Source of the DNA: Longimicrobium sp.
GTDB taxonomy: Bacteria > Gemmatimonadota > Gemmatimonadetes > Longimicrobiales > Longimicrobiaceae
Assembly: GCA_036387335.1 (NCBI GenBank)
Contig: DASVTZ010000181.1
Span: 1 to 57,599, forward strand
Direction of reading: 5' to 3'
Length of the DNA: 57,599 nt
This document shows positions 3,507 to 24,670 of this stretch, piece after piece. The first letter of the stretch is position 1, and each line of letters opens with the position of its first letter. The notes beneath the pieces were generated by a model. That model did no database searches. It had not been told where the DNA came from and was given only the letters and a program-made list of their open reading frames with translations. A program made the position numbers and the translations under genes.

Positions 3507-3825
3507 TGGGCCGCGCGTGTTCCGCCCCTGGCATCCTTTCTGCGCCCCGTGCCATGTCCCGCGGGGGCTGTGCGTGCCCGGCGGGGAACAAGATGGGACC
3601 CCCACGATGGTGGCGAACATGTACACGTCACGAGACGAAAACGACCGGCGCGACGCCCCGCGCGGCGACCGCCCCTACGGTCGGCGGATCGACTGCGCGG
3701 AAGACGGCACGCGCGCCGTCGCCGCCACACCCGCGCGTGGCGGCGGCCGACCCGCGCCCGAAGCATGGGCCGCCCACGACTCGCGTAGCTGAGCCCACAC
3801 ACCCCGCCCTGACCGTACAAGCTTA
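3507..3825. other. intergenic region before the cyanophycin operon
   Basis: No convincing gene is seen in this 319-bp stretch. It contains the hairpin CGCCGCCAC/GTGGCGGCG (3720-3728 and 3737-3745) and presumably the promoter of the cyanophycin operon. I could not pick out a promoter with confidence. Confidence 0.5.
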
Positions 3826-6486
3826 ATGGCTGAAGCCCAACTCCAGGCCGCGGCCGTGGACCCGGACCAGCTCCGCGTCTCGCGGCTGCGCGCCGTTCGC
3901 GGCCCCAACTTCTGGCGCCTCGCCCCCGTCATCGCGTGCGACGTGCGGCTGGGGACGCTGGAAGACGTACCCTCCAGCCAGTTCCCCGGCTTCGCCGAGC
4001 GGCTGGTGGCGGCCCTCCCCACGCTGCGCGAGCACCCGTGCTCCCGCGGCACCGAGGGCGGCTTCGTGGCGCGCCTGGAAGAGGGGACCCACCTCCCCCA
4101 CATCCTGGAGCACGTGTCGCTCGAGCTGCAGACGCTCGCCGGCTCCGACGTGTCGTTCGGGCGCGTGGTGGCGTCGGGCGACGAGGGGGTGTGGTGGCTG
4201 ATCGTGGAGTACGAGGAGGAGGACGTGGGGCTGCAGTCCGTGCGCGAGGCCGTGCGGCTGGTGAAGGCGTGCATGACCGGCGAGGAGATCGACGTCGAGG
4301 AGATGATCGAGGACCTCCACGACCTGCTGGAGAGCGTCCGCCTGGGGCCCTCCACGGCGGCAATCGTGGAGGAGGCGCGCCGGCGCGGCATCCCCGTGCG
4401 GCGCCTCAACTCGTACTCGCTGGTGCAGCTGGGGCTGGGGAAGAACCTGCGCCGCGTGCAGGCCGCCATGTCGGACTACACCAGCGCCATCGCGGTTGAG
4501 ATCGCGCAGGACAAGGACGACACGCGGCGCGTGCTGGGCAACATCGGCCTTCCCGTGCCGCAGGGCGGGATCGCGAGTAGCGTGGAGCGCGCCATCGAGC
4601 TTGCGGAGGAGATCGGCTATCCGCTCATCCTCAAGCCGCTTGACGCGTCGCACGGCCGCGGCATCAGCGGGCGGCTGGACGACCACGATGGGCTGCGCCG
4701 CGCCTGGGAGGCCAACAAGGACATGGGGCGCAGGATGGTGATCGAGCGCTTCGTGACCGGCCGCGACCACCGCGTGCTGGTGGTGGACGGCAGGGTGGCG
4801 GCGGTGGCCGAGCGCGTCCCCGCCCACGTGATCGGCGACGGCGCCAGCACGGTGCGCGAGCTGATCCGCAAGGCCAACGAGGACCCGCGCCGCGGCCGCG
4901 GGCACACCAAGGTCCTCACCCACCTGCCGGACGACCGGCAGACGGACGCCTTCCTGGAGAAGAGCGGGCTGAGCGTGGAGCACGTGCCGGCCGAGGGAGA
5001 GCAGGTGCTGCTGCGCGCCACGGCCAACCTCTCCACCGGCGGCACCTCGGTGGACCGGACGGACGAGATGCACCCCGACAACGTGACGGCGTGCGAGATG
5101 GCCGCGGGGATCGTCGGGCTGGACATCGCGGGGATCGACGTGCTCTCGCCGGACATCTCGGTGCCGTTCCGCGAGAACGGGGCGGTGATCATCGAGGTCA
5201 ACGCCGCGCCGGGGCTGCGCATGCACTCGCACCCCAGCGAGGGAACGCCGCGCAACGTGGGCGCGCCCATCATCGACATGCTGTACCCGCCGGGCACGCC
5301 GTTCACCATCCCCGTGATCGCCATCACCGGCACGAACGGAAAGACGACGACCACGCGCCTCACCGCGCACCTCTTCCGCCAGACGGGGAAGACGGTCGGC
5401 TTCACGACGACGGACGGTGTCTACCTGCAGAACCGGCAGGTGATGGAGGGGGACATGACGGGCCCCTTCTCGGCCAACATCATCCTCAGCAACCCCACCG
5501 TGGAGGTGGCGGTGCTGGAGACGGCGCGCGGCGGGCTGCTGCGCGCGGGGCTGGGCTTCGACGAGGCGGACGTGGGCGTGGTCCTCAACGTCTCGGCCGA
5601 CCACCTGGGGCTGCGCGGCATCCACACCGTGGAGCAGCTCGCCGAGGTGAAGGCGGTGATCGCGGCGGTGGTGAAGCGCGAGGGACACGCCGTGCTCAAC
5701 GCGGACGAGCCGCTCGTCTACGCCATGCGCGACAAGACGGGGGCGGACATCGTCCTCTTCTCCACGCAGCAGCCGGGGGAGAACCGGCAGTTCGAGGACC
5801 ACATCACGCGCGGCGGGATCGGGGTGCGGATCGAGGACAGCGAGTTCGTGATCCGGCGCGGGCGGCTGCGCATCCCCATCGCGCGCATCACCGAGGTTCC
5901 GCTGATGGTGGGCGGGGCCGCGCGCTTCCAGCAGGGCAACATCCTGGCGGCCATCGCCACGGCGTACGTGCAGGGGGTGCGGTACGACACGATCCGCGCG
6001 GGGCTGCTGTCGTTCTTCCCATCGCCGTCCATGACGCCGGGCCGGCTCAACATCATCCGCGTGGGCGAGGCGCGCGTGCTGGTGGACTACGCGCACAACG
6101 CCGCGGCGCTCGAAGGGCTGATGGAGATGGTGGCCAACATCCCGGCCCGCCGCCGCATCGGCCTGATCACCGCCCCCGGCGACCGCCGCGACGAGGACAT
6201 CCGCGCCGTGGGCCGCATCTGCGCCGGCCTGGACCTGGCGGTGGTCAAGGAAGACGAGAATCCGCGCGGCCGCGGCAACCTGGAGATCACCGGCCTCATC
6301 GTCGACGGCCTGCGCGAGGGCGGCATGACCCCCGACCGCATCGAGCAGATCGTGGACGAGATGGAGGCCCTGGAGCACGGCCTGGAGATGCTGGAGAAAG
6401 ACGACCTGATGGTGGTTCTGGCCGACGACGTGCCGGGCGTGCTGGCGGCGGTGCAGGCCCGGGTCGGCGAGCCGGCGGCGGCGTGA
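3826..6486 (+). CDS. cphA: cyanophycin synthetase
   Basis: Cyanophycin synthetase polymerises Asp and Arg into multi-L-arginyl-poly-L-aspartate, a nitrogen reserve, using ATP. The 886 residues match the usual CphA1 length. The order is an N-terminal CphA domain (about 1-160), an ATP-grasp domain that adds Asp (about 170-480; YPLILKPLDASHGRGI and EVNAAPGLRMH are recognisable), and a Mur-ligase-like domain that adds Arg, with P-loop ITGTNGKTTTT near residue 500, ETARGGLLRAGLGF, and DYAHNAAALEGL in its C-terminal lobe. It starts at ATG 3826. It is the first gene of a three-gene operon that ends with cyanophycinase. Confidence 0.95.
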   Translation: MAEAQLQAAAVDPDQLRVSRLRAVRGPNFWRLAPVIACDVRLGTLEDVPSSQFPGFAERLVAALPTLREHPCSRGTEGGFVARLEEGTHLPHILEHVSLELQTLAGSDVSFGRVVASGDEGVWWLIVEYEEEDVGLQSVREAVRLVKACMTGEEIDVEEMIEDLHDLLESVRLGPSTAAIVEEARRRGIPVRRLNSYSLVQLGLGKNLRRVQAAMSDYTSAIAVEIAQDKDDTRRVLGNIGLPVPQGGIASSVERAIELAEEIGYPLILKPLDASHGRGISGRLDDHDGLRRAWEANKDMGRRMVIERFVTGRDHRVLVVDGRVAAVAERVPAHVIGDGASTVRELIRKANEDPRRGRGHTKVLTHLPDDRQTDAFLEKSGLSVEHVPAEGEQVLLRATANLSTGGTSVDRTDEMHPDNVTACEMAAGIVGLDIAGIDVLSPDISVPFRENGAVIIEVNAAPGLRMHSHPSEGTPRNVGAPIIDMLYPPGTPFTIPVIAITGTNGKTTTTRLTAHLFRQTGKTVGFTTTDGVYLQNRQVMEGDMTGPFSANIILSNPTVEVAVLETARGGLLRAGLGFDEADVGVVLNVSADHLGLRGIHTVEQLAEVKAVIAAVVKREGHAVLNADEPLVYAMRDKTGADIVLFSTQQPGENRQFEDHITRGGIGVRIEDSEFVIRRGRLRIPIARITEVPLMVGGAARFQQGNILAAIATAYVQGVRYDTIRAGLLSFFPSPSMTPGRLNIIRVGEARVLVDYAHNAAALEGLMEMVANIPARRRIGLITAPGDRRDEDIRAVGRICAGLDLAVVKEDENPRGRGNLEITGLIVDGLREGGMTPDRIEQIVDEMEALEHGLEMLEKDDLMVVLADDVPGVLAAVQARVGEPAAA

Positions 6487-7822: not shown

Positions 7823-8751
7823 TGTCGGTTGAAGTTTCGGAAGACAACGAGAGCTCGCAGCCGGAGATCCCCACCCGCCGGCGCACGGACCGCCACACGG
7901 GCGTCCTGGTGCTCATCGGCGGCGCGTGCGATCCCGAGGGAGCGGCGTTCAAGTCGTTCATCGACCTGTGCCGCTCGCGTCCGGGTGGCGGAAGCAAGAT
8001 CGTCGGCCTCACCACCGCCTCGCACGAGCCGGTGGAGTCTGCCAACGACTGGATACAGGCCTTCGCCACCGCCGGCGTGCGGGACGTGGCCATCCCCATC
8101 GTCGACTCCCGCGACCGCGCGCAGGACCGCACCGTCGCGCGCATGATCTCCGAGGCCGACGGCGTCTTCCTGGGCGGCGGCGACCAGGTGCACCTGGTGA
8201 CGACGCTGGCCGGCTCGCGCGTGGGCCACGCCATCAACGACCTGTACGGGTGCGGCGGCGTCATCTGCGGCACCAGCGCCGGCGCCGCCGCCCTCACCGA
8301 GACCATCCTCGCCGGCGGCGAGCCGGACGAGTACGGCCAGATGCAGCAGCTTCACCTGGGCCCCGGCTTCGGGCTGCTGGGCTTCCGCGCCGTCATCGAC
8401 ACGCACTTCACGCAGCGCCGACGCCTGCAGCGCCTCTTCATGGTCATCGCCCGCAACGCCGAGCTCATGGGCCTGGGCATCGACGAGGACACCGGCATCA
8501 TCATCCGCGGCCACCTGGGCGAAGTCGTCGGCCGCGGCTCCGTGACCTTCGTCGACGGCCGCGGCGTCCGCTTCGACAACGCCGACCAGTGCATGGAGGG
8601 CGTCCCCCTCACCCTCAGCTACCTGCGCGTTGGCATCGTCGGCGCCGGCTACACCTTCAACCTCCGCGAGCGCGAGCTGGAAACCCTCCTCGAGGCCCGC
8701 ACCGCCAACACCGCCACCGAGGTGCTGCGGGGGGACGGGGCGGCGGGGTAG
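7822..8751 (+). CDS. cphB: cyanophycinase
   Basis: Cyanophycinase is a serine exopeptidase that releases beta-Asp-Arg dipeptides from cyanophycin. The 309-residue protein has the S51-family nucleophile elbow GTSAGAAA (Ser near 152), the preceding FLGGGDQVHLV and the following DTHFTQRRRLQRL typical of CphB. It overlaps the stop of the CphA-like gene (ATG 7822), implying translational coupling. No signal peptide is seen, so it should act on intracellular granules. Together with cphA it allows both storage and recovery of nitrogen. Confidence 0.95.
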   Translation: MSVEVSEDNESSQPEIPTRRRTDRHTGVLVLIGGACDPEGAAFKSFIDLCRSRPGGGSKIVGLTTASHEPVESANDWIQAFATAGVRDVAIPIVDSRDRAQDRTVARMISEADGVFLGGGDQVHLVTTLAGSRVGHAINDLYGCGGVICGTSAGAAALTETILAGGEPDEYGQMQQLHLGPGFGLLGFRAVIDTHFTQRRRLQRLFMVIARNAELMGLGIDEDTGIIIRGHLGEVVGRGSVTFVDGRGVRFDNADQCMEGVPLTLSYLRVGIVGAGYTFNLRERELETLLEARTANTATEVLRGDGAAG

Positions 8752-9274
8752 CGGCACAAGAGCGTACAGCGGGGAGAGGACCGCTCGACGGGCCCTTGCC
8801 CTGCGGGGCTCGCGCACTTTGAACCATTCGCGTACACCGCGTTTGGCGGGGGATGTCGGTCAGCGCCCATGTTCTCAAGCTTCGTCGCTCGGCGGCGTCC
8901 CGGTGGGAAGAAGACGCTGGTGGAGATAGCGCGCACTCGGGGAAAAGAAACCCGGGAGCGCGCAGATGCCGCTGAGGCACTTGCCAAGGGACTCAGAGGC
9001 TGGCAGTTGTCTGCCGCCGGTGCAGCGGCTGACAATCGGCTGCACGGGATACGCGCCCATCCGTGCATTCGCCGGACGAGCGACTGCCGTGGCACCGCAC
9101 TCCTAACCCTTGCTCGGTTAAGCCGTTGTGCGCAGGTATCGCGTTGCCTACTTCTCTCCACGCAAGTACTGCGTAGCGAAGATCTCAGACGCTGCGATTG
9201 AATAAAGAAACGGCCGTTGCCGAGTTCCGAGTCCTGCGAGACAAATATGCGAGGCGACTAAAGTTGTTGGTTGC
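8752..9274. other. intergenic region with the first attC-like site
   Basis: No well-supported gene is seen. A frame from ATG 8869 is open up to and through the attC-like site at 9026-9125 and could be a short cassette gene, but it has no ribosome-binding site and no recognisable family. Base composition drops sharply to the right of about 9.1 kb. Confidence 0.4.
9026..9125 (+). repeat. attC-like site 1 (degenerate stem)
   Basis: The left end GGCTGACAATCGGCTGCA and right end CCTAACCCTTG...GGTTAAGCCG match the other sites in the window. The central stem (GGGATACGCG against CACCGCACTCC) pairs poorly. Confidence 0.6.
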
Positions 9275-10423
9275 TCAAATAGTGAGCTTGCAATCTGGAC
9301 GGACCCGTGCGAGATAATCGCGAATATGCCCAATTAGCAGTTTCAGATCTGTGCAGTATACGGACGGTTGGGCAAAGCCCAAGCTAGAACTATACCTATT
9401 GATAGGGCTTCCACCCCCACAGACTGGAAAGTATTCGCAGCGGATACATTCTTCACACGCCCCGCTGCCTTTATCGCGGAACGATCTTGCTAATGGAAGT
9501 TGTTCAACGCTGCGCACTGGGGAATCGAAGACGCTCATCCCGGTCCTGCTGGCGCCCTCGAAAGTAGTCTTCAGCGCGTCAGCAATGTGGTAAGAGCCGT
9601 CCGTTTCAATCGCGAGTGCACCCACGGTGTGGGCGCCAAATTGATCTGTACCCCGCTGCCCCCCAAGAAGGAGGTCGATTAGCAGTAAAAACGTTCTAAT
9701 GTATATTGAGCCTTCACGCTCGCTCCACGCATTAAACAGTTTAATTAACCACGTTCCTGTCTCGCCAGCTTGAATACCAGAATTGCCCATCGTGTCATGG
9801 TTTAGTTCGGGAAGCAAGAAGTCGCCCCGTTCGACGCCGAGTGATTCAATCGCGTCCAGTATCTCGGTGGGGTTAGTTCGGGGATTAATTACAGACAGAA
9901 TGCTTCCAACCAACTCCGGCGCGCTGTTCCGCATAAGATTCAGCCCCTGAACAACCTTGTCGTAGCTTCCCTCCCCGCTATGCAAAACACGAATGCGGTC
10001 GTGAGTTTCACGCGTTCCATCCACGCTGAACCCAACCCCTACATTATATTTTTGAAGGATGGAGATTTTGTCAGATGTCAACAAAGTCCCGTTCGTTTGC
10101 AGCGCAAAACCCACATGGCGACTCTTAACACTTCGCGATATCTCGCCAAAAAAGAAATCAAGGTCCGGATGCAATAGCGGTTCACCCCCATGTGCAATTA
10201 CCAATAGACTTTGCGAGCGCATAGTGCGGGCATGTTCCTCCAACCGGTACGCGACGGCGCGGATCGTGTCGCGGGAGATGAGCTTCGGTTGCTGCCGCCA
10301 TGATTGATCCGCGTGTTGATACATATAGCAATATGAGCATGCGAGATTGCAGCGGCTCGCAACCTTGATTACGAAGATTTCGGTCCACCCTGGATCTTCA
10401 AGTCTGTCGCATGCCTGATCCAT
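9275..10423 (-). CDS. radical SAM/SPASM peptide maturase, FxsB-like
   Basis: This 382-residue radical SAM enzyme has the cluster motif CNLACSYC (C25, C29, C32) in the context RCNLACSYCYMYQHADQSW. That context is close to FxsB-type maturases, which make three-residue cyclophanes in peptides. The SAM-binding HGGEPLLHPDL and LQTNGTLL blocks follow, and a C-terminal SPASM region has clustered cysteines (CEECIRCEYFPVCGG and a later C) for auxiliary Fe-S clusters. It lies 113 bp downstream of a 65-codon candidate precursor gene on the same strand. GC content is clearly lower than in the cyanophycin operon, suggesting transfer. Product and target are inferred, not shown. Confidence 0.85.
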   Translation of the reverse strand: MDQACDRLEDPGWTEIFVIKVASRCNLACSYCYMYQHADQSWRQQPKLISRDTIRAVAYRLEEHARTMRSQSLLVIAHGGEPLLHPDLDFFFGEISRSVKSRHVGFALQTNGTLLTSDKISILQKYNVGVGFSVDGTRETHDRIRVLHSGEGSYDKVVQGLNLMRNSAPELVGSILSVINPRTNPTEILDAIESLGVERGDFLLPELNHDTMGNSGIQAGETGTWLIKLFNAWSEREGSIYIRTFLLLIDLLLGGQRGTDQFGAHTVGALAIETDGSYHIADALKTTFEGASRTGMSVFDSPVRSVEQLPLARSFRDKGSGACEECIRCEYFPVCGGGSPINRYSSSLGFAQPSVYCTDLKLLIGHIRDYLARVRPDCKLTI

Positions 10424-10484
10424 TTTAGCTCAATCGACTTAGATACGAGGTGAGGCTAGTGACGCGAGAGTAAACAGAAATGCT

Positions 10485-10510
10485 CAGGCGCATCCGGTCT
10501 GAGGCGCCTG
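10485..10510 (-). terminator. hairpin between precursor gene and maturase
   Basis: CAGGCGC at 10485-10491 pairs with GCGCCTG at 10504-10510. It sits in the 113-bp gap between the candidate precursor and the radical SAM gene. It could be an attenuator or mRNA-processing hairpin that lowers maturase expression relative to precursor. Confidence 0.4.
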
Positions 10511-10536
10511 TTCGGTTAGCCTCCGTGATGATGGGG

Positions 10537-10734
10537 TCAGCGACGGCGGTCTGCCTTCCCCCACGCCTTCCAAGCTTCGAACGCCGATCTTGAATCCGTA
10601 CAGCCGGCAGCAAACGCGGCAAGGGCTTCGCGCACATGTAAATTAACGACTCTGTCCATGCGCGAACTCGCACGGTCATCGAAGAATGGCCCAGGACCGG
10701 GGACATCGATGTCTGTTGAGTTTGGACCAGTCAT
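10537..10734 (-). CDS. candidate RiPP precursor peptide (65 aa)
   Basis: This short gene lies immediately upstream of the radical SAM maturase on the same strand, with a Shine-Dalgarno GGAG six bases before its ATG. The 65-residue product has an acidic, Pro/Gly-rich N-terminal part (TDIDVPGPGPFFDD) and an alpha-helical middle (LHVREALAAFAAG). It ends in AFEAWKAWGKADRRR, which contains three consecutive aromatic-x-x triplets: FEA, WKA, WGK. Such triplets are the substrates of cyclophane-forming radical SAM enzymes, and W-x-K is the carbon-carbon link motif in darobactin. The RRR tail could be a follower or cleavage signal. I know of no named family for it; the role is inferred from context and the C-terminal motif. 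Confidence 0.65.
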   Translation of the reverse strand: MTGPNSTDIDVPGPGPFFDDRASSRMDRVVNLHVREALAAFAAGCTDSRSAFEAWKAWGKADRRR

Positions 10735-10758
10735 TTAGGTCTCCAAAAGGTTTCGGGC

Positions 10759-11520
10759 TTATTCCTCACTCAGCATCTCGCTGGGGGAGATGAGTTCCAG
10801 AGTGGGGTACAAGGCTTCCCTCTGCACGACGTGCTCCGGGAGTGTGGCTAGAAACGGAAGAGCCTTAACATACCGATCTCCCATAGTATCTACAACTCGT
10901 ATCGAGAATGCAAGATATTTGATGAAAATGAGAGCTTCAGGCGCGAAGGCAGCGAATTCAAACCCCTCAGTCGGCTGCTTAACGATTCCCAAGGGGGTAC
11001 CAGGTGTTATATGCTCTAGGTGAAAATCTAGGTTGCCCCGCAACCGGCATCTACCGAGGAGCGATATCACGTCTTGCAGAGATCCATCAATGATCTCGCC
11101 GTCACCCATCGCGCTGTGTACTTGTAACGAATACCAAATGCCATCGACGTAGGCCAAGCCTGGCCCAACATTGGCTATGTGGACACACCACGCGGACTTA
11201 TCCAGCACACGGCTCCGACATTGTTCCGAAGAGAACAGTAGATTCGGGCGGAGTGCCCTAGCATATTGTTCCCTAGCAATAATTAAGCTGGTGAAGAGTC
11301 CGCATAACGCCGCAGTGGGACCCACTCCGAGAAACGTTAGACACCAAGGCCATTCAGTCCCAGAAACATTAATGCGCACTACCTCCCAGATCAGCAACAG
11401 CAACAAAATACATAATGCACACATCGGGGCTAGGGAGAACCGCCAGTTCCGGCTTACGCGGCGCTGGCGAGATAGTGTCGCGATCTCGTCGGGGTGTGCT
11501 TTCAAGTTTGAACCCAACAT
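10759..11520 (-). CDS. two-TM protein of unknown function, upstream of the RiPP genes
   Basis: This 253-residue protein is not recognised. It has two membrane segments near residues 30-50 (APMCALCILLLLLIWEVV) and 60-85 (GVGPTAALCGLFTSLII), followed by a soluble domain of about 165 residues. It ends 24 bp before the candidate precursor start, so the three minus-strand genes may form one transcript. The frame is open 91 codons further upstream, but ATG 11520 directly precedes the first conserved-looking segment. An accessory, export or immunity role is possible but unproven. Confidence 0.6.
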   Translation of the reverse strand: MLGSNLKAHPDEIATLSRQRRVSRNWRFSLAPMCALCILLLLLIWEVVRINVSGTEWPWCLTFLGVGPTAALCGLFTSLIIAREQYARALRPNLLFSSEQCRSRVLDKSAWCVHIANVGPGLAYVDGIWYSLQVHSAMGDGEIIDGSLQDVISLLGRCRLRGNLDFHLEHITPGTPLGIVKQPTEGFEFAAFAPEALIFIKYLAFSIRVVDTMGDRYVKALPFLATLPEHVVQREALYPTLELISPSEMLSEE

Positions 11521-12082
11521 CTTCGAGATTCTTGCGGGTATTTGCCTTAATGTATGCCTAGATTCTGCCTGATTGCAAGATTGCCGTAGTTGGCTCGGGT
11601 CGGTTAATCGGTTGCGGAGCCGGACACAGGAGTAGAGGACACCAGCCGTTCCGGGTGTTCGGGCACTAGCCTCTAGCGCCCGATGGCTAGCAGAAGGGCA
11701 TCTCCACGCCGGAACAAAGCGGCTGAAAGCAGACGCGTCCTTCCTATGAGGCGCCGTGGGCGTGTCGTACCTTGGTCCCAAAGGGGCAGACATCGCTGGC
11801 TACACGGGTGTGCCGCGAAGCTCTGAGTGTTTACTGGGCTGCGGCGTTTCCACGAAACATTGTGGCCGGCGCAGCAGTGGTGGCGGGGTGCCAATAACCC
11901 AATATAGCCCCACGCGTGCAAACCCGGACCCCGCCCACTTAGGAAGTCGTTAGGCAGGTGTCCGGTATCGGCGTAGGGGGCCTTTTAGGTTCAGGTAATC
12001 TTAGTTCTCTTGCGCGCATTACTCGAGCGACCCATAGTTTTATCGTCCTCAGACGGCTGCTCACTTCTCCCTGGAGCTGATC
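11521..12082. other. intergenic region between divergent blocks
   Basis: No gene is supported. A palindrome GTGGCGGGGT/ACCCCGCCCAC (about 11880-11936) followed by GTTAGGC (11949-11955) looks like a decayed attC-like site. The start of the minus-strand block and the promoter of the following plus-strand gene must lie in this stretch. Confidence 0.4.
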
Positions 12083-13357
12083 ATGTCGAAACCCCTCCCT
12101 CGTACGATTCTGCTCGGAGCGGCGCTGGCTACACTCGCGCCTAATCCAGGATCTGCACAAGCAATCCACCTGCCGCCTATGTACACCAATCCTATACCGG
12201 GCGGTACCCCATTGCTTACCTTTAGGAACATAGATCCCTCAGAGTTCCCCGCTGGGACCCAGATCGTCATCGATGATGACCGACTTGTACTTATGATTCC
12301 TAGTAAAGGAGACGAAGTCTATCCGCTCAGTAATACGACTCTCAATCAACTCGCCGACGCGATTCGAGCACGCCACCCTAACAAGATCGAAATCATTGTC
12401 GCTTATCCCTTCCGCCCTGCGACTAATCTAACGCCCAATCCCAAGCCAACTGCTATCACAGTACCGTTATCGGCAGCCACGCCAGGGCCTTATGTCGGTT
12501 TGGGGTTCGGCGTCGTTTTTGCAATGACCGATGCGGACGATGACTCCGAGGATGATGATGGCCTTCTCGGCCAGACTGGGTTCCAACTTGATTTGATAGG
12601 CTCGCACCAACTCTTAGGTCCTCGCAACAACAATAAGCCACTTTCCGGGTTCTTCGGTAATGACATCTATGCGCAGGTTCGTCTTGGCCTGAACTCAGAT
12701 CAGCGCCTGAACGTCGTCACTTCGCAGACAAATGTTGAAAATCCTGCCTCGGACCAGTTTGAAACTGCCATCGGCCAAGCCGACCAAGTCGCACTCACTG
12801 GTCAGCTAGAATTCGTCTGGCCCCTAAAGGGCCAGCCGGTAGAGGTTTCCATAGTACCTGAATATGGAGTTGCGTGGACGCAACTGGAGCCATTCGCGTT
12901 CCCCGCACTGCCCCGAGTTCTCGGTGGAGACCCGGAGCCCTCGGAAGGGTTTTTTGACGAGGACATCCGAAGGCCCGTGGTCCGCGCGCTCAATCAGACG
13001 CTTCCGCTCGGGGCCGGTGGTGTATCCGCGGTCTTCCGGTTCCGGCGCAGTGATCGGTTATCGTTTTATGTTGGTGGTGGGCCACTCTGGAAAGAAACGG
13101 TCGAACGCGGAATCCGCTATCAGCGTCGGCCACCCAACCAGGAGATCGCTCGGACTATTCTAAGCCCCGTGATCAGCACGCCCGTAAGTAAGTTTTGGCG
13201 GGCGCAATTCGGAGCGCGTATGGCAGGCACAGTCGACCTGCGGGTAGACGCTGTCGGACCTCTGAGTCGGGACATTGTACCTGGGGAGTCAAACCGCAAG
13301 AGCTTTCCCCCTATTCTGCGCCTGGTATTGGTGCGCAATTTTCCGATCACGCGCTGA
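12083..13357 (+). CDS. secreted protein, probable outer-membrane beta-barrel
   Basis: This 424-residue protein starts with a signal peptide (TILLGAALATLAPNPGSAQA). A proline-rich N-terminal domain (about 30-145) is followed by a Gly/aromatic-rich region with alternating short strands and acidic loops (TDADDDSEDDDG). The strands include VGLGFGVVFAM, GFQLDLIGSHQ, YAQVRLGLN, LSFYVGGG and LRLVLVRNF at the extreme C terminus, which fits an outer-membrane barrel. No named family is recognised. A GGAG ribosome-binding site precedes ATG 12083. Base composition is lower in GC than the flanks. Confidence 0.7.
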   Translation: MSKPLPRTILLGAALATLAPNPGSAQAIHLPPMYTNPIPGGTPLLTFRNIDPSEFPAGTQIVIDDDRLVLMIPSKGDEVYPLSNTTLNQLADAIRARHPNKIEIIVAYPFRPATNLTPNPKPTAITVPLSAATPGPYVGLGFGVVFAMTDADDDSEDDDGLLGQTGFQLDLIGSHQLLGPRNNNKPLSGFFGNDIYAQVRLGLNSDQRLNVVTSQTNVENPASDQFETAIGQADQVALTGQLEFVWPLKGQPVEVSIVPEYGVAWTQLEPFAFPALPRVLGGDPEPSEGFFDEDIRRPVVRALNQTLPLGAGGVSAVFRFRRSDRLSFYVGGGPLWKETVERGIRYQRRPPNQEIARTILSPVISTPVSKFWRAQFGARMAGTVDLRVDAVGPLSRDIVPGESNRKSFPPILRLVLVRNFPITR

Positions 13358-13359
13358 TC

Positions 13360-13650
13360 CTATGGAATACGGCTACTATCGTATCCCTGTCGCTTGCCGA
13401 CCAGCTTGCCGACTACGGTTTTTGCCCGCTCCCCGCGGCGGCTCACCGGCAGTTCGAAGCGTGCCCTGGCCCGGTCGATCTCCCGCTGCACCGCCTCCAG
13501 ATCCCGCGCGGCAACCTCCCGATGTCGAGGTTGTTGACCCAGCCCGGTGCTGAAGGCCATCTTCCACTTCGAGGCACCGAGCTCGAACGCGATGCAGAGC
13601 ACGAGATCGAGAACGGCAGTGACAGCGTTGGGGGTCGTTGCGGTTGCCAT
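13360..13650 (-). pseudogene. IS110-family transposase, N-terminal fragment
   Basis: The first about 60 residues (AFELGASKWKMAFSTGLGQ, then REVAARDLEAVQREIDRARARFELP) match the start of the IS110 DEDD transposase domain, including the first Asp/Glu-containing strand. A good ribosome-binding site (GGAGGAG) precedes the ATG. After RFELP the frame continues as unrelated sequence and stops, so the rest of the gene is deleted. It begins 69 bp left of an attC-like site. Confidence 0.75.
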
Positions 13651-13718
13651 GGGCTCCTCCTGGTTGAGTGATGACCTTCCACGGAGAGCTTAACCGCGGC
13701 GGCCCCCTCTTCCATAGG

Positions 13719-13818
13719 ATCTAACAATCGGCTGCAGGGGATGCGGGGCCTTGCATGCTTTCGGGCGGAGGTAAGTCTTGCGAGCGGCCCCGCACCCCTA
13801 ACCCTTGTGTCGTTAGGC
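13719..13818 (+). repeat. attC-like site 2 (best-formed)
   Basis: Left box ATCTAAC (13719-13725) and right box GTTAGGC (13812-13818) frame a stem in which GGGGATGCGGGGCC pairs with GGCCCCGCACCCC, leaving one bulged A on the left arm. The unpaired spacer TCGGCTGCA / TAACCCTTGTGTC and the variable central loop match the attC layout (R''-L''-L'-R'). Confidence 0.85.
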
Positions 13819-13948
13819 CGCTCGGCAAGCATCGCGGCAGCCGCAGGTGAATCGTCTTCACGAGTCTTGGTTGGGACTTGGGGGCCGTAGACGCTTTCGC
13901 GCGACGCACGCGCCCCACACCGGCCTCGCACGCTCACGCTTGGTGCTT

Positions 13949-14653: not shown

Positions 14654-14704
14654 GCCAGGTGGCTGCGACCGCGGAGACGAGCTATAAGAGGGCGTCGGTG
14701 GCGC

Positions 14705-14806
14705 GGCCTAAAAATCGGCTGCGCGGATGCGGGGCCGTGCCTGCTTTCAGCCGAGGAAAGTCTTGCGCGTCAGCCCCGCAACCCTGACCCTCGTGTTGTT
14801 TGACGG
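14705..14806 (+). repeat. attC-like site 3
   Basis: Left box GCCTAAA at 14706 and right box GTTTGAC ending at 14804 enclose the stem GCGGATGCGGGG / CCCCGCAACC with the same bulged A. The internal sequence GAAAGTCTTGCGCG is shared with sites 6, 7 and 10. Confidence 0.8.
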
Positions 14807-14824
14807 CTTACTTCCACGAACATC

Positions 14825-15229
14825 ATGACTCCGATGGCTACTTCGGCGACGCGGCCGCAGCTGACGTCCCTCGCGCCCCAGTTTTTGGTGGATGACCTGG
14901 CGCGCTCGATGGCGTACTACCAGAAGCTCGGCTTCGCGTTCGGCGAGCCGTGGAACGGGTTCTACGCGATCGGGGAGCTGGACGGGCTGGAGCTGCACCT
15001 GAAGCAGGCGAAGAAGTATGACGCGGAGCGCCGCCACCGGCGTGAGCACGAGCACCTGGACGCCGCGGCGGGTGTGGCTGGCATCGAGGCGTTCTACGCG
15101 CGCTGTGTCGCGAACGAAGTGACGGTACTCCGGCCGCTGGCTGCGACGGCGTGGGGCACGAAGGACTTCTACGTCGAGGATCCAGATGGATACGTGATCG
15201 CGTTCGGGGGTCGGCCCGCCGAAGGGTGA
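14825..15229 (+). CDS. VOC-family (glyoxalase/bleomycin-resistance-like) protein
   Basis: This 134-residue protein has one VOC module pair. It opens with APQFLVDDLARSMAYYQKLGF and closes with DFYVEDPDGYVIAFG, where the Glu/Asp of the last strand is typical of metal-binding VOC proteins. It may bind or detoxify a small molecule, or act as an immunity-type binding protein; the substrate cannot be told. It starts 19 bp after attC-like site 3, so it is the gene of the next cassette. Confidence 0.85.
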   Translation: MTPMATSATRPQLTSLAPQFLVDDLARSMAYYQKLGFAFGEPWNGFYAIGELDGLELHLKQAKKYDAERRHRREHEHLDAAAGVAGIEAFYARCVANEVTVLRPLAATAWGTKDFYVEDPDGYVIAFGGRPAEG

Positions 15230-15386
15230 CCGGAGCGCCGGACGCGCCCGGCCGCCATCTAACGCGCGCAGCGTCCCAACCGAGGGCATAGCTCCAGCCC
15301 CGCGCGCTTGCAGCTTCGCTCGAGCGTCAGGACTCCCCGCCCGCATCCACCAGTCTCCACCATCCGGTGCTACATCGCGAAGGTGC

Positions 15387-16985
15387 GTGCCTGGAATCTC
15401 GTTATCTTCTCACTTCAGCGACGAATTGTCCCTGCTCGATCCCGCCGCCCTTCTCGCTACTCGCGCTAGATTGCCTACCGGTGCATCCAGGGCATTGCTT
15501 CGGCGTGCCGTCCGAAGCGACACGACGACCGATCTCACGCTGACCCGCTCCGCGTCTGGCCGCGAGCTCCTGCGTCTCGAGATCACCGCACCCGTGCAGG
15601 TAGTCCTTGCAGTCGCGGCGGGTGCGTTGCTGAGCGCCGGTTACGCCCTTCATCCGGTGTGGTGGGCACCGTGGTTCGCACCTGTCCCGTTGCTCATGGC
15701 AGCCTCGGGTTCGCGCCTCTCGGCGCGTTCTATCGGCGCCATTGCCGGGGCGGTGGCGATGACGAGCCTGTTGTCCTACTACGTTGAGTTGATTGGCTGG
15801 CCGGGCACACTGCTGACCACCGTCCTCCGAGCAGCCTCGTGGATGCTCGCGATCCGGTTGACGGTCGTAGCCGCCCGGTATCTATCGCTGGCGGGAGCAG
15901 TGTTCGTTCTCCCGGCCACCATCGCAGCCTGCGAGCTGATGGCGCTGCAACTGTCGCCGCACGGCGCGGCAGGGAGCCTGGCGTACAGTCAGATGGACGT
16001 GCCGGGAGTGGTTCAGATCGCGGCGCTCGGCGGGGTGTGTGCGGTGGTCTTCCTTGTGTTGCTCCCGGGTTCGCTGGTGGGCCTTTGCCTCTCCAGGCGC
16101 TTCCCTCGCGCGGAGCATCGTTCGGCGGGCGCTCTGGTAAGCGTGATCATCCTTGCCATCGCGCTATTCTCCGTTGCGCGGCTCCGTACCCCGCATTCGG
16201 GAAACACCGTGCCGGTCACTCTCATCTCGACGAACCAGTTCGATCGTGTCCGGGCTGATTGGGAGGATGTGTGGAGGACGTACCGCCCGGCAGTCATCGG
16301 GTCTGCCACGTCCGGCGGGCTCGTGGTGCTGCCCGAGAAACTCGTCCTGCTCGATCAGGAGGATGCGGCCCGTGCCGCCCAGGACGTCATCGAGGCAGCC
16401 CGCGTGACCGGCGCCGCGATCATCGTGGGTGTCGAGACTCGCGACCGCAGAGTCTACCATAATCGCGCGTTGCTGGCGGCGCCGGATGGGCACGCTACGT
16501 GGTATGACAAGCAACGGCTCGTTCCCGGGTGGGAAGATCGCGATACCCCCGGCGAGTCACCGGTTTTTCTTGGGGTGATGGATACGCGGGTGGGCATTGC
16601 CATCTGCAAAGACATGCACATCCCGGCGATTGGTCGACAGTACGCGGGAAATGCGGCGATCATGGTCGTACCGGCCTACGACTTTGGCCGGGATGGGTGG
16701 ATGGGGGCACGAATGACCGCAATGCGAACCGTAGAGAACGGCTACGCAGTCGCGCGCAGCGCGCGGAACGGACTGGTGAGCGCGTACGATCGAACGGGTC
16801 GCGTGCTCGTTGAGTTTCCGGTGGGCGATAGCATCACGGTTGCGACGACGACGCTCCCAGCCGATGGATCATCCACCCTCTATGGGCGTGTGGGGAACGT
16901 GTTCGGGTGGCTCTGCTTGGGTGGAACCGTGGTGCTGTGGATCTGGCTCTCGCTGGCCCAGCGACGGGAGAACAGCCGCGGTTAA
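15387..16985 (+). CDS. membrane carbon-nitrogen hydrolase, Lnt-like
   Basis: This 532-residue protein has six to seven TM segments (about residues 70-255) followed by a periplasmic nitrilase-fold domain, the architecture of apolipoprotein N-acyltransferase. The Glu-Lys-Cys catalytic triad is visible: E317 in VLPEKLVLL, K375 in WYDKQRLVPGWE and C407 in IAICKDMH. One further TM (VFGWLCLGGTVVLWIWLSLAQ) ends the protein. Sequence outside the triad is divergent, so it may be a paralogue acting on another amide rather than the housekeeping Lnt. The start is GTG 15387; no strong ribosome-binding site is seen. Confidence 0.75.
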   Translation: MPGISLSSHFSDELSLLDPAALLATRARLPTGASRALLRRAVRSDTTTDLTLTRSASGRELLRLEITAPVQVVLAVAAGALLSAGYALHPVWWAPWFAPVPLLMAASGSRLSARSIGAIAGAVAMTSLLSYYVELIGWPGTLLTTVLRAASWMLAIRLTVVAARYLSLAGAVFVLPATIAACELMALQLSPHGAAGSLAYSQMDVPGVVQIAALGGVCAVVFLVLLPGSLVGLCLSRRFPRAEHRSAGALVSVIILAIALFSVARLRTPHSGNTVPVTLISTNQFDRVRADWEDVWRTYRPAVIGSATSGGLVVLPEKLVLLDQEDAARAAQDVIEAARVTGAAIIVGVETRDRRVYHNRALLAAPDGHATWYDKQRLVPGWEDRDTPGESPVFLGVMDTRVGIAICKDMHIPAIGRQYAGNAAIMVVPAYDFGRDGWMGARMTAMRTVENGYAVARSARNGLVSAYDRTGRVLVEFPVGDSITVATTTLPADGSSTLYGRVGNVFGWLCLGGTVVLWIWLSLAQRRENSRG

Positions 16986-17328
16986 CGAACGGTGAAGCGT
17001 TCATTCGTCGTGCATCCGGCTCGACGATGTGGCCGATGTATCTGCCGCGCTCAGCCCTGCTCTGCACCGCCACATTGCGAGCCACTTCCTCTCAGGCGCC
17101 GGGGCTCGGGTGCCCCTCGGTCCACCTTCTATCCGTGTCAGCTCAAAGGCCGATCACCTCATGCGCGTAGTTGCCCGTTGGGCGAGTCCAAGGGAAGCGC
17201 GGAGCGAGGTACCCCATCTAACAACAGTCGGCCATCCGAGCCCAACCGGCAGCAGCGAGGGCCCTCGCACCCGCGCGTGCGCTGCCACGCAGCCCCTACC
17301 TGCTCACGAAGCCTGAGCGTGCCCACCT
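16986..17328. other. intergenic region without recognised gene
   Basis: No gene is supported. ATCTAACAACAGTCGGCC near 17217 resembles the left end of an attC-like site, but no right half was found. Confidence 0.4.
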
Positions 17329-17766
17329 TCAGGATGGCGCCCGCCGGCGGCGTGCCGTCTCCAGGTACTTCCAGAACTCGACGAGGAGCTTCCTCGCCAG
17401 CGCGACGATGCCGATCTCGCGCAGCTGTGTGCCGCCATGTCCGAATCGTCGCTCATACCATCGGCTGAGCGCGCCCTGCGGCTGGTAGCGCAACCAGCCC
17501 CACGCGATCTCGATGGTGATCAGGCGGATCCAGCGGTTGCCGGCCTTGCAGATCCCCTGCTCGCGTGAGTCGTTACCGCTCTGATACGGCGTGGGCGTGA
17601 AGCCCGCCAGTACACCGACCTCCCTTCGGTTGCAGAACTTCCGCCAGGAGTAGAACTCGAGCGCGAAGAGCCAGGCCGACTCGGGGCCGATGGCACTAAG
17701 GCGGCCACCTCCCCAAAGCTTGAGTGCGAATCGTCGCGCCCGAGTCCGACTAGAAGGACAGTTCAC
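17329..17766 (-). pseudogene. IS110-family transposase, C-terminal fragment
   Basis: The frame encodes the C-terminal Transposase_20 region of an IS110-family element: ESAWLFALEFYSWRKFCNRR, GVLAGFTPTPYQSG, SREQGICKAGNRWIR, then ALSRWYERRFG and a conserved IVALARKLLVEFWKYLE tail. The N-terminal DEDD domain is missing. It is not the other half of the 13360-13650 fragment, because on the minus strand the N terminus would have to lie to the right. Confidence 0.85.
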
Positions 17767-17802
17767 TGTACGTGGTGCCTACTTCAGATCTGGAGGTGCT
17801 GG

Positions 17803-18021
17803 ATGGCTACGGAGAAAAAGAGCTATTACGTGAACGACAACGCGCAGACGAACGGAGATCATGAAGTGCATCGGGAAGGGTGTCAGTACCTCCCGACACC
17901 CGCGAATAGGACATACCTCGGCTCGTTCGACAATTGTAGCGACGCAGTTACCGCCGCTAAGAAGCACTACAAGCAGGTGAACGGTTGCTACACCTGCTCG
18001 CGTGCGTGTCACACGTCATAG
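17803..18021 (+). CDS. small Cys/His-rich protein (72 aa)
   Basis: This 72-residue soluble protein is probably metal-binding. It has H and C in HEVHREGCQYLP, a Cys in SFDNCSDAV, and a C-terminal CYTCSRACHTS. The preceding GGAGG is well placed for ATG 17803. I do not recognise a named domain. It ends about 125 bp before attC-like site 4, so it is probably a cassette gene. Confidence 0.75.
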   Translation: MATEKKSYYVNDNAQTNGDHEVHREGCQYLPTPANRTYLGSFDNCSDAVTAAKKHYKQVNGCYTCSRACHTS

Positions 18022-18147
18022 AACGACCGAACCTCGGGGAGAACGCCCCCGGTATCGGTGTGATCAAGATCAGACGCCGCGGCAGCACGGTTTGGATCTA
18101 CACGAACACTGAAGCGATCCGACGCTGACGAGAAAGGCCGCGCCGTC

Positions 18148-18235
18148 AGTCTGACAATCGGCTGCTGGGATGCGGGCCTTCGTCTGCTTTCAGCGGAACG
18201 GCCCCGCACCCTTGCCCATGTGTAGTGATTCGGGC
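18148..18235 (+). repeat. attC-like site 4
   Basis: Left end AGTCTGACAATCGGCTGC is followed by the stem GGGATGCGGGCC / GGCCCCGCACCC. The right box is degenerate (TGATTCGGGC). Confidence 0.7.
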
Positions 18236-18280
18236 TCTCCAGGCAGTCGATTCCTACACGCGAGATTGGAGCAGAAACGC

Positions 18281-18871
18281 ATGGCGATGACGCGCTGCAA
18301 AGAGTGCGGTACCGAAATCGGCACCAAAGCGGAGGCGTGTCCCAATTGTGGGGCGAAGGTCGCACGGACGAGTGTGGCAAGCTTGGGATGCCTGGGGATC
18401 GTCGCGCTCATCCTTGTATCGGCGGTAATTGGCGGGAGTGATCGCGGCGGATCTTCTCCTTCCCGAGCTTCTTCAGCGATGTCGACTGCGCCGACAGGGG
18501 GTACGGAGGCAACCGCCGGTGCTGCGGCTGCCCCTTCAGCCTCCGACCGGGACGGCAACCTTACAGCGGCCCAGCGGAATGCCCTCCGTTCAGCAAAGTC
18601 CTACTTGGCGATGTCCGGATTCTCACGTCAAGGTCTGATCGACCAACTATCCTCGGAATACGGCGAGAAGTTCAGCGTGGCGGACGCGACCGCCGCCGTC
18701 GACAACCTGAACGTCGACTGGAAAGCTCAGGCAGCGAGGTCTGCCGCAGCGTATCTGGAGATGTCCGGGTTCTCATGCCGGGGCTTGATCGACCAACTTT
18801 CGTCGCCGAGTGGAGAGCAGTTCACCGTCGAACAAGCGACCTATGGCGCGGGCCGCGCGGGCATCTGCTGA
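18281..18871 (+). CDS. zinc-ribbon membrane protein with two Ltp-type repeats
   Basis: This 196-residue protein has an N-terminal zinc ribbon (CKECGTEIGTKAEACPNCG), one TM segment (CLGIVALILVSAVIGG), a Ser/Thr/Ala-rich linker, and two tandem 45-residue repeats of the Ltp (host cell surface-exposed lipoprotein) type. The repeats run AKSYLAMSGFSRQGLIDQLS and AAAYLEMSGFSCRGLIDQLS, each ending in a FSV/FTVE...AT block. Ltp repeats are best known from phage superinfection-exclusion proteins and actinobacterial surface proteins. Here they would face the periplasm. ATG 18281 is the start that opens the zinc ribbon. Confidence 0.8.
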   Translation: MAMTRCKECGTEIGTKAEACPNCGAKVARTSVASLGCLGIVALILVSAVIGGSDRGGSSPSRASSAMSTAPTGGTEATAGAAAAPSASDRDGNLTAAQRNALRSAKSYLAMSGFSRQGLIDQLSSEYGEKFSVADATAAVDNLNVDWKAQAARSAAAYLEMSGFSCRGLIDQLSSPSGEQFTVEQATYGAGRAGIC

Positions 18872-18976
18872 GCAAACGTCACGTCTGGCCGACGATCTAC
18901 GCCGCCCTGCACCGGCCCGTCGCGACTGAGCTGGTAGCGCTCACATCGGTTCCGCATCGCCTTGCGCAGCACTCCC

Positions 18977-19026
18977 GTAATCAGATCCCGCCACCGCGCT
19001 TGCGCGTGATGGCGGGATCTGATTAC
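18977..19026. terminator. perfect 17-bp hairpin upstream of mtnA
   Basis: GTAATCAGATCCCGCCA (18977-18993) is exactly complementary to TGGCGGGATCTGATTAC (19010-19026). The 16-nt loop itself contains CGCGC/GCGCG. There is no T-run. It ends 49 bp before the mtnA start and may terminate the upstream gene or control mtnA. Confidence 0.6.
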
Positions 19027-19074
19027 GCTTAGGTTATCCCCCGACCGCGGTCCCCCACCCCCCGAGCTCTTTCG

Positions 19075-20154
19075 ATGCGCGTAGACGGTACGCCGTACCA
19101 GACCGTCTGGATGGACGGCGCGACGGTCTGGATGATCGAGCAGAACCGCCTCCCGTTCGAGTTCGCCGTGATCTCCTGCCCGGACCACCGCGCCACGGCC
19201 GAGGCGATCCGGGTGATGACCGTGCGCGGCGCCCCCGCCATCGGCGCGGCGGCGGGGTTCGCGCTGGCGCAGGCGTTCACCGAGGCGCCGGCGGGCGATC
19301 CCTGGGGCTACGCCCGCGCCGCCCGCGCCTTTATCGAAGGCACGCGCCCCACCGCCCGCGACCTCTTCCACGCCACCGAGCGCGTCTGGGCCGCCGCCGA
19401 GACCGCCGTGCACCCCACCGGCGCCGCGGACGCGGCGGTGGAGGCGGCGCGCGCGCTGGCGGCGGAGAGCGTGTCCAGCTGCCGCGCGCTGGGCGGCCAC
19501 GGCGCGGCGCTGGTAGGCGACGGCGCGCGGGTGCTGACGCACTGCAACGCCGGGTGGCTGGCGACGGTGGACTACGGGACGGCGCTGGCGCCCGTCTACG
19601 TGGCCGCGGGCGCGGGGAAGCGGGTGCACGTGTGGGTGGACGAGACGCGCCCCCGCGCGCAGGGCGCCCGCCTGACGGCCTGGGAGCTGGGCCGCGAGGG
19701 CATCCCCCACGCCGTCATCGCGGACAACGCCGCCGCCTATCTGATGAGCCGCGGCGAGGTGGACCTGGTCATCGTGGGGGCGGACCGCGTGGCGGCCAAC
19801 GGCGACGTGGTCAACAAGGTGGGGACGCTCGCCAAGGCCGTGTGCGCCAGGGAGTTCGGCATCCCGTTCTACGTCGCCGTCCCGCCCTCCACCTTCGACG
19901 CGGCGGTGCCGGACGGCCCCAGCATCCCCATCGAGGAGCGCTCGGCGGACGAGGTGCATTACCAGACGGGCCCGGACGAGGCGGGGGTGATGCGCCGCGT
20001 GCGCGTCACCGCCCCGGGCTCCGCCGCCCGCAACCCCGCGTTCGACGTCACCCCCGCGCGCTTCGTCACCGGCTACGTCACCGAGCGCGGCGTCTTCGGC
20101 CCCGGCGACCTCCCGGCGTGCGTCTTTCCCGCCCAGGCCGTCATGACCCAATGA
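19075..20154 (+). CDS. mtnA: S-methyl-5-thioribose-1-phosphate isomerase
   Basis: MtnA converts 5-methylthioribose-1-phosphate to 5-methylthioribulose-1-phosphate in methionine salvage; relatives also isomerise 5-deoxyribose-1-phosphate. The 359-residue length is normal. The family signature VRGAPAIGAAAG, the catalytic Cys157 in HCNAGWLATVDYGTA and Asp237 in VGADRVAANGDVVNKVGT are all present. Its stop overlaps the start of the aldolase/dehydrogenase gene (ATGA at 20151-20154), implying a coupled pathway. GC content is high, like the cyanophycin operon and unlike the cassettes on either side. Confidence 0.95.
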   Translation: MRVDGTPYQTVWMDGATVWMIEQNRLPFEFAVISCPDHRATAEAIRVMTVRGAPAIGAAAGFALAQAFTEAPAGDPWGYARAARAFIEGTRPTARDLFHATERVWAAAETAVHPTGAADAAVEAARALAAESVSSCRALGGHGAALVGDGARVLTHCNAGWLATVDYGTALAPVYVAAGAGKRVHVWVDETRPRAQGARLTAWELGREGIPHAVIADNAAAYLMSRGEVDLVIVGADRVAANGDVVNKVGTLAKAVCAREFGIPFYVAVPPSTFDAAVPDGPSIPIEERSADEVHYQTGPDEAGVMRRVRVTAPGSAARNPAFDVTPARFVTGYVTERGVFGPGDLPACVFPAQAVMTQ

Positions 20155-22214: not shown

Positions 22215-22316
22215 CCGGGCCGGTTCGATTCGCCGGAACGACTCTGGGATCGGCAGATGCGACAGGTAGCGCCGCGAATCCTCCTCCACCCTCGGCTAGT
22301 CTCGTCAGGTCGCCCC

Positions 22317-22586
22317 ATGAGCAAACTCCAGGAGATTCTGGTGCGTGCGACGACGGATCTCGCGCCGTGCCAATCGATTCCGCGTGACCGCTGGAAGGGG
22401 ATTGCCGCGGAGTGTGGGCCAGACGAAGTCAACGAGATTCACGAGCGAATGGAGGCGCTCCGTTCAGAGTTGAACTCCGTGGAGTCGTGGGATGGCGATA
22501 CAAGCGACGACATCCATCGAGCTTTGGAGTTCTTTGCAGAGCTTCTCGCGCTGAAACAAGGCACAAGCGGGCACTCACCCTCCTGA
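22317..22586 (+). CDS. small helical protein of unknown function (89 aa), cassette gene
   Basis: This 89-residue, acidic, predicted all-helical protein (EVNEIHERMEALRSELNSVE, then DIHRALEFFAELLALKQG) has no recognised domain. Its TGA stop (22584-22586) lies inside the left box of attC-like site 5, the compact layout common in integron cassettes. Start ATG 22317 is preferred; an in-frame ATG at 22257 would add 20 residues. Confidence 0.65.
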   Translation: MSKLQEILVRATTDLAPCQSIPRDRWKGIAAECGPDEVNEIHERMEALRSELNSVESWDGDTSDDIHRALEFFAELLALKQGTSGHSPS

Positions 22587-22684
22587 ACAATCGACTGGAG
22601 GGAATGCGGGGCCTCGCATGCTTTCGGGCGAACTAGAGCCTTGCGTACCGGCCCCGCACCCCTGACCCTTGTGTTCGGTAGGTC
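22582..22684 (+). repeat. attC-like site 5
   Basis: Left end CCTGAACAATCGACTGGAGG, stem GGGAATGCGGGGCC / GGCCCCGCACCCC, and right end CCCTTGTGTTCGGTAGGTCGC. The left box contains the stop codon of the upstream gene. Confidence 0.8.
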
Positions 22685-22827
22685 GCTGGACAAGAATTGC
22701 GGCAGCCGCAGATCATCTCTCCTCGAGTGCCTTAGCCAAGCTTAGGCGGCTTGCCGCCTCACCACCGTTTCCGCGCCACGACGAGCTGGTCCGCTCGGGT
22801 CCAGAGTCCCCTCCGCCAAGGCATTCC

Positions 22828-23535
22828 ATGCCTCTGATTGAGTTAATCGTCACGGGATTGCTGTTCGTACTCTCCTCCGGAATCCTTTTCAACGACCAAC
22901 ATCGCCGCAACAAGTTGCTGGTGGGGATTGCCGCCGTTCTCACCATCGGCTCCACGATCTCACTCCTTGCGGCGCTTAGCAACCGCCGGTCCAACGACAC
23001 GTCCACTGACAGTGTCAGCGTGAACACTGATACCACTGCTCCGCGACTGATCTCCTCCACGCACGCCCCTGAGGTACGAGCCCTCGCCAACGGCGACTAC
23101 ACGCTGGCTCTTCCACAGCCGCTCTGGGACGCCGTGAATGCCTACTTGCGACCGCGAGACGCCATCCGGCTCGCGACCTGGTCAGACGCGAGCAAGGATG
23201 GGAAGGCCGCGATGCGGCAAGGACAGCTACAATATCCGTTCGCGCTCTGGCGAGACCTGGATGGCGACGGTGACCTGGATATCGCACTCGTCTTCGTCTC
23301 GGAGAAACGTACGAATTCGTTCGCGTGGCGCGACTGGAACGTTGTGGTGTTCCGCCAGTGGCCTGACGGGAGGTTCCAGGACTTGCCGGTTACGACTATG
23401 AATGGCTCGTGTTTCGATGGGATGATCTATGTCCCGGAGTTTGACCACGTCGAATACGGATGCTTCGAGGTAGCCGTCGGTTCGTTCCGATGGGCCGGGC
23501 ATGGGTTCTTCATCGACGGCGGGATCGGCGACTGA
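22828..23535 (+). CDS. membrane-anchored protein with a Ca-binding-like DxDGDGDxD motif
   Basis: This 235-residue protein has two adjacent TM segments (LIVTGLLFVLSSGILF and LLVGIAAVLTIGSTISLLAAL, residues 5-55), a Thr/Ser-rich linker, and a soluble domain of about 140 residues. That domain contains DLDGDGDLDIALVF, a calcium-binding motif of FG-GAP/dockerin-like loops, with aromatic-rich strands after it. The family is unknown. It lies between attC-like sites 5 and 6 and is the likely gene of that cassette. ATG 22828 starts just before the first TM. Confidence 0.65.
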   Translation: MPLIELIVTGLLFVLSSGILFNDQHRRNKLLVGIAAVLTIGSTISLLAALSNRRSNDTSTDSVSVNTDTTAPRLISSTHAPEVRALANGDYTLALPQPLWDAVNAYLRPRDAIRLATWSDASKDGKAAMRQGQLQYPFALWRDLDGDGDLDIALVFVSEKRTNSFAWRDWNVVVFRQWPDGRFQDLPVTTMNGSCFDGMIYVPEFDHVEYGCFEVAVGSFRWAGHGFFIDGGIGD

Positions 23536-23578
23536 AGAGTTGCACAAGTAGCATAGCCCTTTGCCTTGTCATGGCGCG

Positions 23579-23625
23579 GGCTAACAATCGCCTTCAGGGA
23601 GTGCGGGACCGTCCATGATTTCGCC
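23579..23625 (+). repeat. attC-like remnant, internally deleted
   Basis: The left end GGCTAACAATCGCCTTCAGG and right end CGTCAGGCCGCT are present, but only about 47 bp remain and the GC stem is lost (only GTGCGGGACC is left). It directly follows the preceding cassette gene. Confidence 0.6.
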
Positions 23626-24398: not shown

Positions 24399-24475
24399 CA
24401 TGCGGCGCAGCCGCGTGAACGAGAGCGATTCGGCGCGGAGCGCGGCCCGCAGGTTCTTGTCTCGCGCGCAGGGCG

Positions 24476-24576: not shown

Positions 24577-24670
24577 GGCTGCCTGCAGACTATCGGGTGT
24601 CTTCGTCACGCTGCTGGTCCTCCGCCGCAAACTGTCCATCCCTATTCGCGCCTCCTCGATAGCTCCGGGT

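Follow-up and report, generated by a model that had tools for sequence, protein, structure and literature searches.

Gene content of the locus

The window analysed here, a 57,599-nucleotide stretch of a Longimicrobium sp. genome (contig DASVTZ010000181.1), carries on its minus strand three genes that form an apparent operon. In order of transcription these encode a two-TM protein of 253 aa (11520–10759), a 65-aa peptide (10734–10537) and a radical SAM/SPASM maturase of 382 aa (10423–9275), with 24 bases between the first two genes and 113 bases between the second and third. The low GC ascribed to the block in an initial annotation of this DNA is borne out, with values of 0.522 in the two-TM gene, 0.581 in the 65-codon gene and 0.517 in the maturase gene, versus 0.713 in the flanking cyanophycinase gene. 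The DNA adjoining the operon showed no gene for a protease, a transporter or tailoring.

The two-TM protein, the product of the first gene, had no match in Pfam, NCBIfam or PADLOC; the predicted fold is of too low confidence for use (pLDDT 41). Its homologues occur on Streptomyces plasmids, none of them beside an annotated maturase, and because they lie away from such genes the role in a peptide system suggested by its inclusion in the block is unsupported. Transcribed divergently from the operon is a gene for an exported protein [12083–13357(+)], with a weak Pfam match to the outer-membrane barrel family OMP_b-brl (E 0.14), which shares with the operon a single attC-to-attC interval (see below). 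A 96-codon ORF elsewhere in the window, at 13360–13650 on the minus strand (ASKWKMAFSTGLGQQPRHREVAARDLEAVQREIDRARARFELP), has a good Shine-Dalgarno site and no Pfam match, and is reminiscent of the start of a transposase.

An integron cassette array around the operon

Repeats of ~105 nt, first detected near 9026, 13716 and 14704, formed the basis of a covariance model, and the covariance models R1 and R2 place one site on either side of the unit that holds the operon, at 9025–9128(+) on the maturase side and at 13717–13823(+) on the other. Nine such sites occur in the window, all in one orientation (9025, 13717, 14704, 18147, 22580, 24474, 26140, 28573 and 29659); they are imperfectly palindromic, have CTAAC...GTTAGGC ends and lie between genes. 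The alignment contains 64 matches across the window and the genus loci, and matches to the covariance model were found in nine of 10 genomes of the genus, the source genome counted. A strict RYYYAAC/GTTRRRY scan gave no matches, even at sites later found by the covariance models; since it missed these, its rules were too strict and the covariance models were used instead. A further candidate at 11890–11957 was rejected, having no hairpin (z +1.5) and scoring 2.4 bits with the 64-sequence model.

The same sites are found on contig C97 of a congeneric genome (G009), from 5807(+) onwards, in an array that starts 1.35 kb past an integron integrase [IntI, split frame, 3602–4457(−)] and runs in the opposite orientation to it. 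An integrase followed by an oppositely oriented attC array is the canonical layout of an integron. Because the repeats follow an integron integrase in this congener, we read them as attC sites, and the window as an array without an integrase. The integrase in G009 is split by a frame change, and that integron is possibly inactive. No integron integrase scored over the cut-off in the window's own genome, where the best TIGR02249 match was XerD-like.

The operon is antisense to the array, within the 4.6-kb interval 9129–13716. The initial annotation had placed an attC-like site beside the block and proposed that the block might travel as a cassette; the site in question is 9025–9128(+), one of nine copies, and with these and the congeneric integrase the context is stronger than was claimed. 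In the closest relative (G013) synteny stops directly after the cyanophycinase stop codon, and the interval is therefore strain-variable DNA.

Other units of the array (14704–29755) encode glyoxalase-like, apolipoprotein N-acyltransferase-like, Ltp-like lipoprotein, EthD-domain and HD-domain proteins. The end of the cyanophycinase gene (window 8470–8753) is itself repeated, at 94% and 92% identity, in the variable region of G013 (L300), as partial copies at C65 18559–18276 and 16821–16615, and there is a weaker copy (75%) at 35437–35731 of the window. Each copy stops at a similar GGCGGG(G/A)TAGC boundary, which looks like the mark of an island insertion site at the gene's 3′ terminus.

A divergent maturase of the triceptide-forming clade

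The maturase ORF is intact, with no stop or frameshift across its 382 codons. As initially annotated, it carries the radical SAM motif CNLACSYC (C25, C29 and C32 of a CxxxCxxC pattern) and SPASM cysteines (C326, C329, C335 and C357); both sets are invariant in a 22-sequence alignment, in which every residue invariant among the 21 relatives is also kept in this protein. The best NCBIfam profile is YhhB (NF041707; 344.5 bits, E 6e-103), followed by FxsB (TIGR04269, the family of MscB and relatives; 327.7 bits, E 9e-98), each score lying below the curated cut-off (445 and 370 respectively). The earlier label ‘FxsB-like’ needs qualifying, the score being under the FxsB cut-off and YhhB being the slightly better profile. 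The best solved relative is ChlB, a YhhB-like cyclophane synthase (PDB 9gm3 and 9gmc; E 4e-67 to 9gm3), and the AlphaFold model of the maturase (pLDDT 88.5) has as its clear best fold match ChlB co-crystallised with its precursor (TM 0.89).

In a maximum-likelihood tree of 31 sequences the maturase shares a supported fork (96/94) with ChlB, YhhB, HaaB and FxsB, as a weak sister of YhhB/ChlB (88/84) on a long and isolated branch (1.41). Grouping with enzymes that act on a distant substrate had been raised initially as a ground for doubt; instead, the maturase groups with YhhB, FxsB and HaaB, whose substrates are adjacent upstream peptides. Its highest identity to any relative found is 38%. Relatives were absent at 1e-40 from the nine other genomes of the genus, a phylum sample of 395 genomes added a single genome with a relative at 1e-45, and a pattern search of 84,980 species genomes returned no close ones. 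Because of this low identity and the near absence of relatives from the genus and phylum sample, we regard the maturase as a divergent and sporadically occurring member of the enzymes that form triceptides (3-CyFEs).

With YhhB/ChlB the locus shares the radical SAM/SPASM fold, the conserved residues and a short candidate precursor gene directly upstream, but the maturase is 34–38% identical to the closer members and has no fused or adjacent HExxH domain. The AP-ATPase/TPR or HExxH partner of FxsA/FxsB systems was not found near it. HaaB belongs to the same clade, yet is only about 31–33% identical and is accompanied by HaaT and HaaN. In the tree, XyeB and the maturase of a phage-contig locus (L087) branch together outside this clade with good support (99/97), and the darobactin and dynobactin models score far lower (DarW 84 bits, DynA 121 bits).

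The candidate precursor

The 65-codon gene begins at ATG 10734, the sole ATG after an in-frame stop, and has its own ribosome-binding site, as had been proposed, in the form of a GGAG Shine-Dalgarno site at 10741–10744(−). Its product ends AFEAWKAWGKADRRR and can be divided into a leader (about residues 1–51) and a core (about residues 52–60), FEA-WKA-WGK, encoded at 10555–10581(−). The three consecutive aromatic-x-x triplets noticed at the outset are indeed rare: among the 432 mechanical ORFs of 30–120 aa in the window, the 65-mer is by inspection the only one with three consecutive [FW]-x-x triplets within its last 20 residues, and the same criterion selected one of 1494 ORFs in loci of related genomes. 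Across the first part of the gene, codon scoring ranks the 65-codon frame highest, though the score is only weakly positive. The Shine-Dalgarno site, codon score, rare motif and position just upstream of the maturase gene suggest that the 65-mer is likely a triceptide precursor.

Searches by tblastn of plasmids and of the source genome gave no convincing homologue of the 65-mer, none was recognisable outside that genome, and the NCBIfam precursor models did not match. It differs from YhhA/ChlA precursors in having neither their conserved leader motif PALxRLxxxL nor a YDRxHxRHNRS core; a YhhA-type YDR/YNR...HNR core is absent from the ORF upstream of the maturase, which ends FEAWKAWGKADRRR. Nor does it have the FxSxx C-terminus of FxsB precursors, in agreement with the initial annotation. 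In local alignments against nine known or candidate precursors the lowest shuffle p values, uncorrected for the nine comparisons, were for the L087 peptide (0.012), HaaA (0.022) and a Nocardia FxsA-like peptide (0.036). The last has a brief match to the 65-mer, ALA...T.SRSA, ahead of the core, which is FEAWKAWGK here as opposed to FxS. HaaA has a Trp near its end (IWTWPL), but its core is His-x-Ala.

Trp-x-Lys in the last triplet had invited comparison with the carbon–carbon link of darobactin. The analogy is not supported: although the triplet is shared, the enzyme is not close to the DarW and DynA models, and the two Trp residues are three apart rather than two, a spacing that misfits the darobactin ether bicycle.

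Peptides upstream of related maturases

Inspecting by eye the DNA that precedes 27 related maturase genes, we found a short ORF with aromatic-x-x triplets at about 21; four loci were ambiguous and two had no obvious short triplet ORF. YhhA types end SYDRMHHRHNRS, FxsA types have FNSF, YNSF or repeated FSSY/FSSH, and others include HDQTHSEG repeats and YTK/YTR repeats; the cores of the nearest sister maturases are Tyr/His-x-Arg. The initial interpretation is supported as to the family of the maturase, the position of the precursor, the logic of the triplets and the cassette setting. A homologous short gene before related maturases, whose absence was to have counted against the proposal, was found only in part: most have a triplet gene, yet no product of these is clearly homologous in sequence to the 65-mer.

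The closest core is that of L087, whose upstream ORF ends DFDAWISWTKSF. Its FDAWISWTKSF has in common with FEAWKAWGK the pattern F-[DE]-A-W-x-[AS]-W-x-K, and both have the cadence F-x-x-W-x-K that is also seen in XyeA (FARWDK). This core, FxAWx[AS]WxK, recurs once, directly upstream of the L087 maturase, which belongs to the XyeB group; since that is another subgroup, the likeness may be convergence or chance. The Phe/Trp-rich core of the 65-mer was found beside no other maturase of such close kinship. In viral contigs the FxAWxAWxK DNA pattern matched 93 stretches, none beside a maturase; the pattern cannot catch L087, which has Ser.

A probable minimal triceptide operon and its alternatives

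The block probably constitutes a minimal operon for a triceptide (a three-residue cyclophane RiPP), borne on a chromosomal array of integron cassettes, with the 65-mer as precursor. The family, intact motifs and fold of the enzyme, the order of the genes, the rarity of the triplet motif and the attC array are computed results; the 65-mer as substrate and the choice of reacting triplets are inferred. The initial description of the locus as undescribed is fair for the core sequence but not to the class of chemistry, which is that of known triceptides. Several observations weigh against this interpretation: the 65-mer has no recognisable homologue beyond its source genome and no NCBIfam precursor match, it is missing the PALxRLxxxL leader motif while sister maturases use Tyr/His-x-Arg cores, its codon score is weakly positive and its shuffle p values are uncorrected, and the long maturase branch could mean relaxed constraint.

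In the links made by 3-CyFEs, an aromatic residue (i) is bonded to the beta-carbon two positions on (i+2; review PMC11002830). By analogy with this chemistry, the maturase would bind the N-terminal leader of the 65-mer, and a [4Fe-4S] cluster at C25/C29/C32 would cleave SAM to yield a 5′-deoxyadenosyl radical, which in each triplet would abstract a beta-hydrogen from the residue in third place (A54, A57 and K60). The carbon radical so formed would add to the ring of the aromatic residue in first place (F52, W55 and W58), giving predicted links F52-A54, W55-A57 and W58-K60, each with a loss of 2 Da. Leader removal and export would need to come from elsewhere, and any activity of the product is conjectural.

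We put forward tentatively a fuller version, in which the maturase represents a deep sister lineage of YhhB that makes a Phe/Trp triceptide from the core FxAWx[AS]WxK, with contiguous crosslinks in all three triplets and Ala as acceptor in two, the whole operon being mobile as a unit of the integron array. If true, triceptide chemistry in the YhhB/FxsB/HaaB clade would come to include Trp and Phe linked to Ala, and an operon for a natural product would have been found within an integron array. Such arrays are better known for single-gene cassettes, and we found no paper in the open-licence literature on RiPP operons as integron cassettes.

A variant compatible with the triceptide operon, doubtful on balance, is that W58-G59-K60 alone is crosslinked and that FEA and WKA serve as a spacer. 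For the 3-CyFEs characterised so far the acceptors listed are in most cases Asn, Asp, Arg and Ser, and because an Ala acceptor is reported for HaaB on His only (PMC11002830), modification of WGK alone is a real possibility. The endings of XyeA (FARWDKAI) and L087 (WTKSF) fit it as well; the Trp-Lys link would be as in darobactin and perhaps as in XyeA-type WxK. HaaB nonetheless shows that Ala can be an acceptor, and in both the 65-mer and L087 the triplets are contiguous and in register.

An unlikely explanation, yet the main rival to the 65-mer, is a longer precursor of 102 aa with Tyr-x-Arg/Tyr-x-Ser cores, interrupted by a frameshift through assembly error or natural mutation. Translation would run from ATG 10734 and pass near a GGGGG run into an overlapping 93-codon frame [10425–10706(−)], ending ...SVYSRVTSLTSYLSRLS at a TAA that a single base separates from the maturase ATG. 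We considered this because the YSR and YLS of the tail (YSR...YLSRLS) resemble YhhA and FxsA cores; the sister YhhB substrates use YDR/YNR. The frame is open up to the maturase start, forming a coupled TAAaATG junction (compare yhhA–yhhB gaps of 4–15 bases), and beyond the 65-mer stop it mostly has the best codon score of the three frames. Over the overlap, however, its score is negative and in the tail near zero (shuffle fraction 0.14), and it shows no likeness to known precursors (all p above 0.1) and no family match. Nor does the 113-base gap need repair, since precursor and maturase are separated by 100–215 bases in four relatives (L062, L063, L068 and L075).

Decay offers a still poorer account, and we think it quite improbable: the maturase would be an orphan or degenerating, its true substrate elsewhere or lost, and the 65-mer an unrelated or chance ORF. 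The long branch, the want of close relatives in the 84,980 species genomes (pattern search) and in the genus, and the absence of tailoring and export genes beside the maturase would all suit an orphan, but the uninterrupted 382 codons, intact invariant catalytic residues, confident fold and rare triplet motif at the expected place upstream argue otherwise. That the enzyme acts on a protein, like an anaerobic sulfatase maturase, rather than on a RiPP is most improbable, for despite some likeness to anSME (TM about 0.79; TIGR03942, 139 bits) the YhhB and FxsB profiles each reach more than double that score, the fold is clearly closest to ChlB and no sulfatase was seen among the array proteins tested.

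Other triceptide-type loci occur in the same genome and lineage. The source genome has a second maturase of this type (L002; G000:C71:8659–9741); the ORF before it, about 115 aa long, contains YDK, YVE, YNR, YTR, YSR and YDR repeats and likely encodes a multi-core precursor. Genomes from the same family and class contain YhhA/YhhB-like pairs (L056 in G003 and L059 in G259), with the cores AYNRMHNRHNR and AYNRTHNRHNR respectively.
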